A stretch of DNA of 36,202 nt from Myxococcota bacterium (GCA_022072125.1 JAJVIH010000048.1:1-36202); one strand, 5' to 3'. Positions 1,082 to 8,907 are shown, numbered from the stretch's first letter. Notes: generated from the sequence alone by a model not told the origin. Translations and numbers: made by a program.

Positions 1082-2260
1082 TCAGGGAATCGCCAACAAT
1101 TCAAATGGCGGGAGACCGGTTGACCGCGCCGCGCCGCGCTCCTCGTCGCCGGGGATGGAAAACACGCGAATCCCCGGACGGGCGGGGGTGCGGTCGCAAA
1201 CCAGCAATTCCCCGCGATCGGGAAGAATCAGCAGGCCCGCCAGATCAAAACTTCCGGTGCGGATCAATTCCCGCACCAGGCGCCGCTCCCGCAGGCTGAA
1301 GTGAGCCAGGGAAGTCTTGTAATCCGGCGTGCTGACCACCACGTACAAATCATCGCCCAGCAAATCCCAGGCGTTGATATCGCCGCCCAAGGTCTGTTCA
1401 TCAATCAACACCACCGCCTTGCCGCTGGCGTCCATTTGCGCGAGTCCGCCATCCAGCGCGCCGAAATTACCGGGGAACGAGAGAGCAAACGATTTTCCGT
1501 CCGGCGACAGTTTCATGGGGCTGATGGGGCTGCGGAAAGGCAACACCCAGCCCTGCGCGCCGGGAACGGCGGGATCCAGATCCGCCACCTCGCCGGTTTC
1601 CGGATCGAGTGCGATGATCAGGGAATCGTGGTTGGCGCGGAAGCGGTCCTTCTGGTCCAGCCGCTGCAGGGTGACGTACACCCGGTTGTTCCACAGCAGC
1701 ATCTGATCCATCTCCGGAACGCCGTCCGGATCGGCGAAGGCGGATAGATCAATCTCCCGGATCGGCGCGCCGGTGGCGGGGTTCATCACCAGCAGCGAGG
1801 GGGATTGATGGCGGGTCACGAAGGCCTTGCCGGGGGAGAGGATCAGCACGTCGCGCGGGTTGGTTCCGTTGCCCACGCCGTGCTGGGCGGCGGTGGCGAA
1901 GCGATTGCGCGGGTCCAGAAACTGCAGGTTGTCCTGGCGCAGGCGGTTGACCACCACCACCTGCCGCAACAAGGGCGACCAGCGCGCCACCGCATCGGAA
2001 TGAATGCTCCCGAGGTCTTTCATCACCGCGCCGCCGGCCGGGTCCAGCACCGCGAAGGAGCCGGTGGCGTAATCGGTGGTGACCACGAAAACGCCAGGCC
2101 CCGCGCCTTCCACGATTCCTCCGCCGTCCGGTCCCGAGCCCGGGCCGGTGAAAGGCCCCGCCTGCTCTCCGCCGCATGACAGCAGGAAAAATCCGATCGC
2201 GCAGGCGCCCGCGGCGGGCAGGAAAAACGATCCGCGGATGATGGAACGGGCGGTATTCAT
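1082..2260 (-). CDS. Beta-propeller-like lipoprotein co-transcribed with BtuB-type receptor (BtuG-like candidate)
   Basis: A 392-residue exported lipoprotein. Residues 1-28 are a signal peptide ending in the lipobox LLSC (Cys29). The rest has repeated motifs of about 45-50 residues, with a Val/Leu-rich strand, then 'DP.TG' or 'LSPDGK' turns, as in YncE/surface-layer-type beta-propellers. The start at 2260 is chosen because GAGG lies 8 bases upstream and the signal peptide begins there; an upstream extension of the frame lacks these and overlaps the receptor gene. It begins 7 bases after the receptor stop codon, and the stop overlaps its ribosome site, so it shares the cobalamin-riboswitch transcript. 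In Bacteroides, BtuG is a surface beta-propeller lipoprotein that binds B12 and is partnered with BtuB. The same role is inferred here from context and architecture, not from sequence identity. Confidence 0.75.
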   Translation of the reverse strand: MNTARSIIRGSFFLPAAGACAIGFFLLSCGGEQAGPFTGPGSGPDGGGIVEGAGPGVFVVTTDYATGSFAVLDPAGGAVMKDLGSIHSDAVARWSPLLRQVVVVNRLRQDNLQFLDPRNRFATAAQHGVGNGTNPRDVLILSPGKAFVTRHQSPSLLVMNPATGAPIREIDLSAFADPDGVPEMDQMLLWNNRVYVTLQRLDQKDRFRANHDSLIIALDPETGEVADLDPAVPGAQGWVLPFRSPISPMKLSPDGKSFALSFPGNFGALDGGLAQMDASGKAVVLIDEQTLGGDINAWDLLGDDLYVVVSTPDYKTSLAHFSLRERRLVRELIRTGSFDLAGLLILPDRGELLVCDRTPARPGIRVFSIPGDEERGAARSTGLPPFELLAIP

Positions 2261-2267
2261 GGCATCC

Positions 2268-4301
2268 TCAAAATGCATCGGCATGGAGAAACAGCGAGAC
2301 CATGAAGATGCGTCCCGGCAGGGGGAAGCCGTCGAAATCGGCGACCCGGTTGGCGGTGAAGTTCTGCGCCTCGAAGGTGATCCGGGCATGGCGGGTTCCC
2401 GGCTGCACGGAGACCAGCGCGCCATGGGTCACCCGCGCCTCGTTGAAGCGGCGGTTGGCGGGATCGAGAAAGGTCAGGCCGGTGTAGCGGAACTCATATT
2501 GCAGGCGGGTCCACGGCAGCAGCACGCGCGGCCGCAGGAAGGTTTCGTCCATGGGGCGGCGCGGCAGAATCATGCCGAAGCGGGCGGCGTCCGCGCTCAA
2601 ATCCTGCGGCAGTTGGCGGGTGTGGTTGCCAGCGAACTGGAAGTGGCGCGTCAGGTTCAGGCTGGCCTGTAATTCCCATCCGGGAATCGCCGCGCCGCCG
2701 ATATTCACCGCGCGGGAATTGCGCTGGCTGAACTGCACGTACTGGATCAGGTTGCTGGCGATGGTGCGGAATGCGGCCGCCTCGGCGTACACGCGGAAGC
2801 CCGGGCCCAGGCGCCGTCCCGAATCGTATCCCACGCCGATATCCTGGTTGAGGCCGATCTCGGGCCGCAGGGCGGGATTTCCGCCGATATATCCGCGGTC
2901 GCCAAACAACTCGAACATGGAGGGGAAGCGCGCGTATTGACCCAGGTTGGCGCGGGCGAAAAATCCATGCGGGAAATTGACCCGCGCCCCCGCCGATGGA
3001 CTCAGGAAATTGCGCGCCGCGCTCGACCGCGCCACGGGCTCCGCGGCGAGGGGAATTTCGCCGCTGAAACGATCGAAGACGGCGTCCCAGCGCAGGGCGG
3101 GGGTGAAGACCACGCCGCCGTTGAAGAAGGCCAGTTGCTGCCACGCCGCCGCGGACAGGCGGTGGCGGCTGCTCGAAGGATGCCCTTTCTCCGGCGGTTG
3201 CAGGTTGCGCGGCTGGTAAATCTCCATGCGCCAGTCGAGCATGCCATGACAGGAGATCCCCCGGGCGAGGTCCGCATGGGCGCGGCTGGTCAGGCCCGCG
3301 GCGTGGGTCAGGTTGTTGTTGACAAGGCCGCCCAGCGCGATTTCTCCGCGGGCGTCGTTCAGGCGTTCGTCCAGCAGGCCGTGGTGCGCCGCCAGTTCGA
3401 GGGTGAAATCATCACTGGCCAGGGGCCGGAAACGGGCGGCGGCCTGGGTAGTTGCGCGCAGCGTGGAAAAATCCGCCTCGCGGGCCTGGTTGCTGGACAC
3501 GCCGGGCAGGCCCTGACGCCGCGTGAAAAAATCGCTGGTCAGATCCAGTTCCAGCAGGCGGGTGGGGCGGGCGGATACGCGGCCGGTCGCGGAGAAAGCG
3601 TTGTTGTGGTTGTTCTCGCGCCGGGTCACGGCGTCATCGGCGGTGTTGAAGGGCGTGCCGTTGTCATCCAGAAATGAATAATCGCCTGCCGAGCCTTCGT
3701 GGCCGAGAAACAGGCCGTAATTCCAGGCGGGGAAATGCTGGGTGCGCGCTCCGCTGATCCGGCGGGTGAAGAAGCTTCCGCCGCTCAGCAGCAATTCGGA
3801 GTATGAACCCGCATCCGCCGATCGGGTCACCAGATTGATGGCGCCCGCAAGCCCCGGTTCGGCCAGGCCCGGCGGCGTGAATCCGCGGTAGACCTCGATG
3901 CGCTCCAGGGCTTCCACGGGGATATCGGCGAGGTTGACGGCGCCGCCGCTGGCCCGGTTCAGCGGCGCGCCATTGAGGTATACCCGCACCTGGTCGGCGT
4001 TGGACCCGCGGATGGACACCGTGCTGAAGGCTCCAGGCCCGCCCAGCGACTGGATGCTGGTTCCGGCGCTTTCCTCCACAAACTGGGCGGCGGAGCGCGC
4101 CTCGCCGCGGCGCTCGTTGATATCAATGATCGTGACGTTGGCGGATGGAAAATCCGGATTGGCGAATCCGCGGTCGAGCGCGGAGCGCACCCGGATGGGC
4201 GTGGCGGCGGCGCCGGGACTGGCGGCGCCGGCGTCATCCGCGCGGGCCAGCGCGGGAAGCAGCAGCAGGCATGCGCCCGCAATGCAAAAACAATGGGTCA
4301 T
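2268..4301 (-). CDS. btuB: TonB-dependent outer-membrane receptor, BtuB type (cobalamin)
   Basis: A 677-residue outer-membrane receptor. A signal peptide (about residues 1-21, ending ALARA) is followed by a short TonB-box-like stretch (TPIRVR). The plug domain (about 50-160) has the family pattern 'STVSIRGSNADQVRVYLNG' and the motif 'GAINLVTR'. A long beta-barrel follows, ending in the C-terminal Phe typical of outer-membrane barrels. The length is slightly above that of E. coli BtuB. The substrate is assigned from the cobalamin riboswitch immediately upstream. The start codon sits inside a hairpin that can hide it (4295-4317), and GGAG is 5 bases upstream. Import through it needs TonB-ExbBD, which is not in this window. 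Downstream is the co-transcribed lipoprotein. Confidence 0.88.
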   Translation of the reverse strand: MTHCFCIAGACLLLLPALARADDAGAASPGAAATPIRVRSALDRGFANPDFPSANVTIIDINERRGEARSAAQFVEESAGTSIQSLGGPGAFSTVSIRGSNADQVRVYLNGAPLNRASGGAVNLADIPVEALERIEVYRGFTPPGLAEPGLAGAINLVTRSADAGSYSELLLSGGSFFTRRISGARTQHFPAWNYGLFLGHEGSAGDYSFLDDNGTPFNTADDAVTRRENNHNNAFSATGRVSARPTRLLELDLTSDFFTRRQGLPGVSSNQAREADFSTLRATTQAAARFRPLASDDFTLELAAHHGLLDERLNDARGEIALGGLVNNNLTHAAGLTSRAHADLARGISCHGMLDWRMEIYQPRNLQPPEKGHPSSSRHRLSAAAWQQLAFFNGGVVFTPALRWDAVFDRFSGEIPLAAEPVARSSAARNFLSPSAGARVNFPHGFFARANLGQYARFPSMFELFGDRGYIGGNPALRPEIGLNQDIGVGYDSGRRLGPGFRVYAEAAAFRTIASNLIQYVQFSQRNSRAVNIGGAAIPGWELQASLNLTRHFQFAGNHTRQLPQDLSADAARFGMILPRRPMDETFLRPRVLLPWTRLQYEFRYTGLTFLDPANRRFNEARVTHGALVSVQPGTRHARITFEAQNFTANRVADFDGFPLPGRIFMVSLFLHADAF

Positions 4302-6169: not shown

Positions 6170-8857
6170 TCAGTTCTTGAGAGCCTTGTCAATGACGGTC
6201 TTGAAGTTGTCGAAGGGCACCGCGCCGACAATGCGCTCTCCGTTGACGAAGAAGGTCGGGGTGCCGTCGGCGCCCACGGTTCCCGCCATGGCGGTGTCCT
6301 TGTCCACGAACTCGGCGAGTTTGGGATCGGCGATGTCCTTGCTGAACTTGCCCAAGTCAAGCCCGAGTTCCTGGGCGTAGCGTTTCAGATCGTCGTCGCT
6401 GAGTGCCCGCTGGTTGTCGAACAGCTTGTCGTGGTACTCCCAGAACTTGCCCTGGCGGTGGGCGGCCATGGCCGCGATGGCGGCGGGCTTGGCGCGATCA
6501 TGGAAGCCCAGCGGCAGGTGCTTGAAGATCATCCGCACCTTGCCCGCGTAGGCTTTCTTGATCTCGTTCATGGTGTTCTTGCCGCGGTTGCAGAAGGGGC
6601 ACTGGAAGTCGGAGAAGACCACCAGCGTGACCTTGGCGTTCGCGGGGCCCAGCGCGGGCGAACCCTCGAACTGGTTGGGCTTGAACTCCACTTTCGCCGC
6701 GGGAGGATCATCCCCGCCGCCAGCCGGCGCGGCGGCGGCGGCGCTCTTCTTGTTCTCATCGCAGGCGCGCTTGTAGAGGTCTTTCGCCCCGCCCGCCTTG
6801 ATGAGTTTGTCGGCCAGTTCGAGTTGCTTGTCGATCTCCGCCTTGAACGACTCAAACGGACGCGCGCCGGAAACCTTGACGCCGTTGATGAAGAACGCCG
6901 GGGTGCCGGTGGCGCCGACAGTGCCCGCGTATTCCTTGTCCTGGGAGACCGCGGCGGCGAAGGTCTTCTTGTCGAGATCGCCCTGGAAACGGCCCATGTT
7001 CAGGCCCAGTTCCTTCGCCAGTTCAATGTATTTGTCGCGGCTGAGCTGGGCGCTGTTCTCGAAGAGTTTGTCGTGGTACTGCCAGAACTTGCCCTGGGCG
7101 TGCGCCGCCATGGCCGCTTCGGCGGCGGGCGCCGCGTTCGGGTGGAAATCCAGCGGCAGGTGGCGGAAGGCGATCCGCACCTTGTCGCCGTAGGTCTCCT
7201 GAATCTTCTTCAGGGTGGGCACCACGCGCGAGCAGAAGGGGCACTGGAAGTCGCTGAATTCGACAATCGTCACCAGCGCGTTCGCGGGGCCCTTGGTGGG
7301 GGTATGGGCCGGGACATCCGGGCAACCCACTTCCACCGCCGGGGCGCGCGGACGTTCGGGGTCGGGGGCCTTCTTGTTGGCTTCCAGACGCTCCTTCAGG
7401 GCGACATCGAAGGATTTGCCGGCGTCGCGGAGCTTCTTCATTTCCGCGAGTTCGGCGTCCACCGCCGCCTTGAAGCTGGTGAACGGCTGGGCGCCGGACA
7501 CATGCTTGCCATTCACAAAGCTGGCCGGCGTGCCCGAAGCGCCGACGCGGCCCGCCATCTTTTCATCGGCGTCCACGTAGTCCTTGAGCATGGAGGAAGA
7601 CAGATCGGCGTTGAACTTGTCCATGTTCAAGCCCAGTTCCTGGGCGTAACGCTTGAGGTCGTCGTCGCCCAGGGCGCGCTGGTTGGCGAAGAGTTTGTCA
7701 TGGTACTCCCAGAACTTGCCCTGCAGGCCGGCGGCGTGGGCGGCGATGGCGGCGGGCTTGGCGCGGTCATGAAATCCCAGGGGCAGATTGCGCCACACCA
7801 CCTTCACGTCCTTCGGGTACTCGTTCAGGACCTGGGTCAGCGTCGGTTCGACCCGGCTGCAGAAGGGGCATTGGAAGTCGCTGAACAACTGGATCACGAT
7901 GCTGGCGTCCCGCGCTCCCTTCCACGGCGCGTCGCCGACATATTCCAGTCCGGCGCTTTCAGGCGGCGGAGTCATGCGTCCGCCCTGACCGCCGCTGGAC
8001 TTGAAGGAATTGTCCACCACGGACGGAGCGGAAGGCTGAGAGGGCTGGGGGGCGGCCGCTTCCTTTTTGCCGGAATCCCCGGACGGCGTGTTGAACTGGC
8101 CATTGCGGATGATGCGGTCGTACAGGGCGGTTTTGGCCAGGCCCTTGTTGTCCTTCAGGATTTTCTCCGCCTTGGCGATCTGCGCCTGCACGCGGGTCTT
8201 GAATTCCTCATAGGGCTGGGCGCCGCTCATCTTGACGCCATTGATGAAGAAGGTGGGGGTCGAATTGACGCCCAAGGCCTCCGCTTCCTTCTTGTCGTCC
8301 TCGATCCAGCTCTTCCACTTCGAGCTGTCGAGATCGGCCTTGAATTTTTCGACGTTCAGGCCCAGTTCGCCGGCGTAGCGGATCAGATCATCCTTGCCGA
8401 TGGCTTTCTGGTTGGCGAACAGCTTGTCGTGATATTCCCAGAATTTTCCCTGGGCGTGCGCCGCCAGCGAGGCCTCGCCAGCCAGTTGCGCGTGTGGATG
8501 AAAGCTCAGGGGAAAATGTTTGAAGGCCACCCGGATTTTTCCGGAAAATTCCCGCTCCAATTGCTGGAGGGTGGGCGAGACCCGGCTGCAGAAGGGACAC
8601 TCAAACTCGCTGAACTCGACGATGGTCACCAGGGCGTCGGAGGGGCCTTTGACCGGGGCCCGGCCCAGCGCCGCGCGGAAGACATCCGGATCGGCGGCCG
8701 CCGCCTCTTCAATACGGGATGGAGATGCGGACGAGGGTGCGTTTTCGACCTTGATTTGGCTGGCGCGTCCAATGAAGAAGCTGACGCCAATGGCCACCAG
8801 GATCGCAAACCCCCATACGAGGGACTTGCCGCTGTCTTGATTCGAAGGAGCTGACAT
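6170..8857 (-). CDS. Membrane-anchored protein with four tandem DsbA-like thioredoxin domains
   Basis: An 895-residue protein with one N-terminal membrane anchor (about residues 12-31) and four DsbA-family domains facing the periplasm. Each has a CPFC redox centre (Cys87/90, 330/333, 539/542, 753/756), the segment 'GKFW.YHDKLF', and a cis-Pro motif ([36 protein letters not shown]). Linkers rich in Ala, Pro, Ser and Gly separate them (about 260-300, 495-520 and 700-725). Two extra cysteines (512 and 699) lie in linker regions. Single-domain relatives are about 200-280 residues. The likely role is disulfide formation or isomerisation in exported proteins. The ATG at 8857 is preferred over an in-frame GTG at 8866 because AGGTGG is correctly spaced before it. 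No DsbB partner is visible. Confidence 0.93.
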
Positions 8858-8907
8858 GGGAACCACCTGAGAGGACGTTGTGTAACCCGTTGGATGATGG
8901 GCAATAC

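Follow-up and report, generated by a model that had tools for sequence, protein, structure and literature searches.

A riboswitch-led BtuB-family receptor and a BtuG-like propeller lipoprotein as a predicted vitamin B12 uptake module in Myxococcota

Whether vitamin B12 capture of the BtuG type occurs beyond the Bacteroidetes is the question raised by a short operon from a member of the Myxococcota. BtuG (BtuG2, BT1954, and BtuG3, BT2095, in Bacteroides thetaiotaomicron) is a seven-bladed propeller lipoprotein encoded next to btuB in operons under a cobalamin riboswitch, and the Bacteroides BtuBG complexes, which work by a pedal-bin mechanism, show the same pairing at the operon level. Based on BlastP searches (1e-10) of 313 gut genomes, BtuG was called exclusive to Bacteroidetes, and no homologue of it is present in E. 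coli (PMC6143338). The window analysed here, meaning the whole 36,202-nucleotide stretch, is one entire contig of a 3.97-Mb genome that is 96% complete, and its host, which the initial annotation had called a "proteobacterial-type genome", belongs to the Myxococcota.

On the minus strand, the transcript runs from a cobalamin riboswitch through the open reading frame of a BtuB-family receptor and, after 7 bases, into a 392-residue lipobox open reading frame (Table 1). This layout agrees with the initial annotation, which had proposed a riboswitch-led transcript carrying btuB and, 7 bases downstream, a lipobox protein. The riboswitch, which falls just beyond the interval 1082-4301 covered by that annotation, scores 85.3 bits where the RF00174 gathering score is 31.5, and the downstream protein opens with a signal peptide and the lipobox FFLLSC29, whose cysteine is invariant across an 18-member Myxococcota alignment (A1). 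The genome contains just one cobalamin riboswitch in addition to the operon's own, so its presence at this operon is not a matter of chance.

Table 1. Features of the window related to vitamin B12 uptake, with the evidence for each assignment
Feature	Position	Strand	Evidence
Cobalamin (B12) riboswitch aptamer core, transcript head	4563-4425	minus	Rfam RF00174, 85.3 bits, E 7e-20
BtuB-family TonB-dependent outer-membrane receptor, 677 aa	4301-2268	minus	Pfam plug and barrel; family profile
BtuG-like propeller lipoprotein, 392 aa	2260-1082	minus	Translation; AlphaFold2; PDB profile and fold searches
Signal peptide and lipobox FFLLSC|GG, ending at predicted lipidated Cys29	2260-2174	minus	Sequence
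Beta-propeller domain of seven blades (residues 55-391); the C-terminal strand completes blade 1	2098-1088	minus	AlphaFold2 DSSP strands, high pLDDT
BtuF-like corrinoid ABC substrate-binding protein	26879-25761	minus	NCBIfam BtuF NF002894 E 6.5e-19, TIGR04281 2e-29, both below cut-off
BtuC-like ABC permease	25764-24760	minus	Best NCBIfam BtuC 1.5e-60, below equivalog cut-off; PF01032 E 1e-79
BtuD-like ABC ATPase, start approximate	24775-23951	minus	Top NCBIfam family: corrinoid ABC transporter ATPase, 9e-71 (under cut-off)
PduO-type cob(I)yrinic acid a,c-diamide adenosyltransferase	23877-23278	minus	TIGR00636 176.6 bits, cut-off 108.45

The receptor carries the TonB plug (Pfam E 2e-14) and barrel (E 9e-21), and BtuB structures head the matches of its family profile. 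A profile built from 24 partner receptors (A6) best matched B. thetaiotaomicron BtuB1 among PDB chains (8blw_A, 162 bits), followed by an unnamed TonB receptor (9gbc_A, 145 bits), BtuB2 (133), E. coli BtuB of the same receptor family (132) and BtuB3 (130). The receptor reaches 78 of the 600 bits set as the NCBIfam equivalog cut-off TIGR01779; this match and one to MxcH were discarded, as both are far under cut-off and lie mostly in the plug domain. The protein is thus a TonB receptor nearest to BtuB that follows a cobalamin riboswitch in a genome with BtuFCD-like genes.

Used as a lone query, the 392-residue protein matched no Pfam or NCBIfam family and no PDB sequence at a meaningful E-value, and a contig scan of genomes with this single sequence returned no relative, so that its link to BtuG depends on family profiles. 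A profile of relatives (A2) did find further members, and the resulting profile of 76 propellers (A3) was searched against 177,635 distinct PDB sequences. BtuG2- and BtuG3-type chains, including the BtuG3/BtuB3G3 structures 8okv, 8p97 and 8p98, filled the top nine places (E 2.1e-13 to 4.6e-11), with hydrazine synthase (9e-5) and YncE (1.5e-4) next, some six orders of magnitude behind; hhalign gave a probability of 97-98% between the propeller family and BtuG. AlphaFold2, supplied with the A3 alignment, predicted a seven-bladed propeller closed by the C-terminal strand, with a pLDDT of about 97 over residues 61-390 and at least 90 for 322 residues. When this model was compared with 350,542 PDB chains using Foldseek, the 13 top-ranked chains were all BtuG (TM by target 0.68-0.75; E 2e-15 to 1e-13) and other propellers followed. 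The comparison with BtuG had been suggested by the initial annotation, which left open whether the protein is a homologue or convergent; homology is favoured, with sequence profile, modelled fold and gene context in agreement although the distance is large. Identity to BtuG is 17-18%, and BtuG members are themselves far apart, as BtuG3 finds BtuG1 by phmmer at just 7e-8. The DUF5074 family (PF16819) has no match in the window's genome.

To follow the family beyond this genome, we ran a profile scan with one genome per species, which yielded 80 propeller loci with named sources, picked by propeller motif or sequence alone with btuB playing no part in the selection. Within Myxococcota, homologues occurred in 23 of 58 genomes, the window's own included. 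By record title, the 80 loci belong to Eisenbacteria, Krumholzibacteriota, Latescibacterota, Gemmatimonadota, Handelsmanbacteria, Fermentibacteria, Binatia/Binatota, Tectomicrobia, Acidobacteria, Bdellovibrio, Gammaproteobacteria and Deltaproteobacteria/Myxococcota, with the caution that titles of metagenome-assembled genomes may mislead: the "Bdellovibrio" locus (L101) matches G006, a genome placed in the window's phylum. In a tree of 76 propellers, the window protein groups with members from Myxococcota and Binatota, in a position that lacks starred support.

A BtuB-type receptor is encoded directly upstream on the same strand at 75 of the 80 loci. Among the exceptions, two begin at a contig end (L108, L126), one places the propeller first, behind the riboswitch (L112), and one has divergent receptor and propeller genes, with a separate cobalamin riboswitch for each of them (L058). 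At the last (L127:5682-8817), a cobalamin riboswitch stands just ahead of the propeller, which is followed by a BtuH-like gene with no btuB nearby; its gene content suggests a stand-alone capture operon. Cobalamin riboswitches were also consistently present, and were found at 62 of the 63 loci having DNA upstream of the receptor (sole exception, L122). A quick motif search detected 45 of these directly upstream, and 17 of the other 18 were positive by Rfam, run on the locus itself or the same contig. Since the quick motif is insensitive and prone to false matches (50% sensitivity on known cases, 2 false matches per 200 kb of shuffled sequence), Rfam was applied to all motif-missed loci and to a sample of the others; in one Rfam batch, 13 of 13 loci were positive. 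In Myxococcota, where genomes hold about 1.4 cobalamin riboswitches each, 22 of 29 propeller places (a count that leaves out contig-end cases) lie within 5 kb of one on the same strand. The propeller usually lies downstream of btuB, a gene-level pairing to be set beside the Bacteroides complexes, and at many loci its start overlaps the btuB stop by four bases (ATGA type), implying coupled translation. The search for btuB-propeller neighbours under B12 riboswitches that the initial annotation had called for therefore revealed a near-universal linkage across some ten phyla.

Variants of this architecture were also seen. Two loci (L078:1117-7011 and L116:1210-7026) carry two propeller paralogues, in the order riboswitch, propeller, BtuH-like gene, btuB and propeller. 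Propellers at L111, L113, L114, L118, L119, L123 and L125 have long extra N-terminal regions, for total lengths of about 505-747 residues; Pfam searches with three of these seven gave no match.

Sequence conservation within the propeller family is confined largely to one face. Of the 45 most conserved propeller positions, 26 fall among the 91 positions of the BC and DA loops and 2 among the 65 of the AB and CD loops (Fisher p 3e-5). The B12-contact residues of BtuG2 (W194, Y239, W272, Y316 and Y335; PMC10404256) also fall in BC/DA loops by sequence position, and the conserved residues of the window family thus gather on the same face as the BtuG2 ligand loops. The contact aromatics themselves are not kept: in a residue-level alignment that is approximate at such distance, W194, W272, Y316 and Y335 correspond to Q199, D294, A341 and A360, Y239 is unaligned, and conservation around the BtuG2 contact positions is not above average (p 0.33). 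The family has instead its own conserved set (R106, D110, N134-P135, D137, D179-G180, Q199 and an aromatic at 266), with most of the invariant polar residues in the first four blades, those that make BtuG2's hydrogen bonds. If the BC/DA face is the B12 face, it would bind with a residue set unlike that of BtuG2. Both the replaced aromatics and the distinct conserved set would also suit a BtuG homologue whose ligand is chiefly a different corrinoid or cobamide precursor, or one that has lost ligand binding and only shapes the receptor. We regard this as unlikely, given the strong conservation on one face only, the riboswitch control and the fact that BtuG2 itself takes several corrinoids (PMC10404256).

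A lid over the receptor would sit outside the cell, and the propeller family offers several indications on this point. By a simple sequence pattern, 31 of the 80 members have a lipobox without a tail, 35 lack a lipobox and end in a tail of about 105 residues, 2 have both and 12 neither, the last group including truncated reading frames and true lipoproteins missed by the pattern, such as L076. In 32 of the 37 members that bear the tail, it matches TIGR04183, the type A sorting domain of the T9SS, at E <= 0.001. Sorting domains of this kind at the C-terminus serve surface or extracellular delivery by the T9SS, of which SprA is the pore. SprA scored above cut-off in all 16 tail-type genomes tested and in none of 13 genomes without the tail, the window's among them. 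The anchor type switches at least three times on the propeller tree, and two Eisenbacteria propellers that carry a lipobox but lack the tail (L056:3694-4815 and L059:5860-6996) are nested among T9SS-tail relatives, an anchor swap inside one lineage. That the propeller is kept while its anchor is swapped is as expected if it must sit outside the cell, and the concordance of tails and SprA in sister lineages indirectly supports a surface location for the family. In some Binatota-type members (L078, L098, L103, L116), dockerin-like repeats (D.N.DGRI..AD) take the place of a plain lipobox, either beside the propeller or as the last part of the BtuH-like protein, and represent a possible third anchoring mode.

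The window's own lipoprotein would by extension also be surface-exposed. No sequence signal that would mark exposed lipoproteins in Myxococcota is known to us. The Bacteroidetes-type export signal (MKWD-like) is absent after Cys29, where the sequence reads C-GGEQAGPFTG; this signal has been described as exclusive to Bacteroidetes (PMC6143338). A lipobox followed by glycine, in a phylum where exposure is not readable from sequence, leaves room for a periplasm-facing helper, held in the inner leaflet of the outer membrane, that takes B12 from BtuB ahead of BtuF. Such a role is quite improbable, considering that sister lineages exchange the lipobox for a T9SS sorting domain only in SprA-bearing genomes, that the lipobox-bearing Eisenbacteria proteins nest inside tail-type relatives, and that BtuG, the nearest structure, is surface-exposed (PMC6143338).

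Other propeller-receptor pairs provide a further comparison. YncE of E. coli is likewise a seven-bladed propeller, encoded beside the TonB receptor YncD (PqqU), and the initial annotation had described the repeats of the window protein as YncE-like; seven propeller blades were indeed modelled, but no library match confirmed the likeness to YncE. A YncD/YncE-like pair, in which the receptor would take pyrroloquinoline quinone or some other ligand and the propeller would be periplasmic and YncE-like, is strongly disfavoured and has only a very slight chance of being correct, as the receptor profile prefers BtuB (162-130 bits) to the pyrroloquinoline quinone transporter YncD (104 bits), the propeller profile BtuG (1e-13) to YncE (1.5e-4), and Foldseek BtuG (ranks 1-13) to YncE (rank 29), with a cobalamin riboswitch nearly always in place. 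In the xenosiderophore pair XusB/XusA of Bacteroides, a surface propeller lipoprotein feeds a TonB receptor (PMC13142918), but its ligand is a siderophore and its propeller belongs to the DUF4374 family, found at Foldseek rank 17 and below. The siderophore reading, like that of YncD/YncE, was rejected on profile scores.

The pair in the window very probably forms a vitamin B12 uptake module of the BtuB-BtuG type, with the propeller as the predicted B12-capturing lid. We infer B12 binding, lid contact with BtuB and outward orientation in this organism. At low cellular cobalamin, the riboswitch would let the transcript be expressed; the receptor would enter the outer membrane with the propeller lipoprotein anchored beside it. 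The propeller would bind corrinoids through its BC/DA-loop face and, as a lid over BtuB, pass B12 on for TonB-driven import, and the BtuFCD-adenosyltransferase operon of the same window would complete the route in a genome that has eight matches to B12-binding domains. The propeller is most likely homologous to BtuG and similar to it in function, while departing from it in two features, the export signal and the named pocket aromatics.

A second component of the Bacteroides system may also be represented. The other cobalamin riboswitch of the genome (G000:C1:80601-80734) heads two lipoprotein genes (G000:C1:80601-82660, equivalent to L128:6602-8661), the first of which (L128:6773-7897) matches no Pfam family. 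Relatives of the second (L128:7897-8661) precede btuB in the same operon at L098, L103, L116, L078, L074, L094, L096, L073, L076 and L080. The profile of this family had BtuH2 of B. thetaiotaomicron (7biz; PMC8941943) as its sole PDB match below E 1, at a weak E of 0.12 and over an SLG..GG.I...FD.....NAF stretch. An AlphaFold2 model of one member placed the BtuG1-BtuH fusion first (8blw_B, E 7.6e-5, TM 0.49) and 7biz third and fourth, with poor superposition. Taken together, weak as these scores are, the second lipoprotein is probably BtuH-like.

The occurrence of BtuB-propeller pairs in some ten phyla besides Myxococcota suggests that surface B12 capture is widespread and not a speciality of the gut. 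Surface scavenging of B12 outside the gut was already suspected, since DUF4465, another family of B12 binders, spans eight clades (PMC13398666). A full-text literature search, with most subscription papers outside its scope, returned no report of a BtuG-type distribution beyond Bacteroidetes. On balance we favour the view that the BtuG lid and the BtuH-like binder are an old, multi-phylum capture kit, with interchangeable lipid and T9SS anchors and a B12 face chemically unlike that of Bacteroides BtuG. A homologous module in Myxococcota and in many uncultured lineages of soil, sediment and groundwater would take BtuG-type capture beyond the gut and would test how capture at the cell surface operates when the Bacteroidetes export signal is absent. 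Many new propellers, as candidate B12 binders, would also become available for use as reagents, a role for which BtuG has a precedent in the quenching of corrinoid exchange (PMC13374852).

Elsewhere in the window, positions 6170-8866 of the minus strand contain an 898-residue open reading frame that appears to consist of four DsbA/thioredoxin-like repeats in tandem, which would make its product an unusual disulfide protein with several domains.
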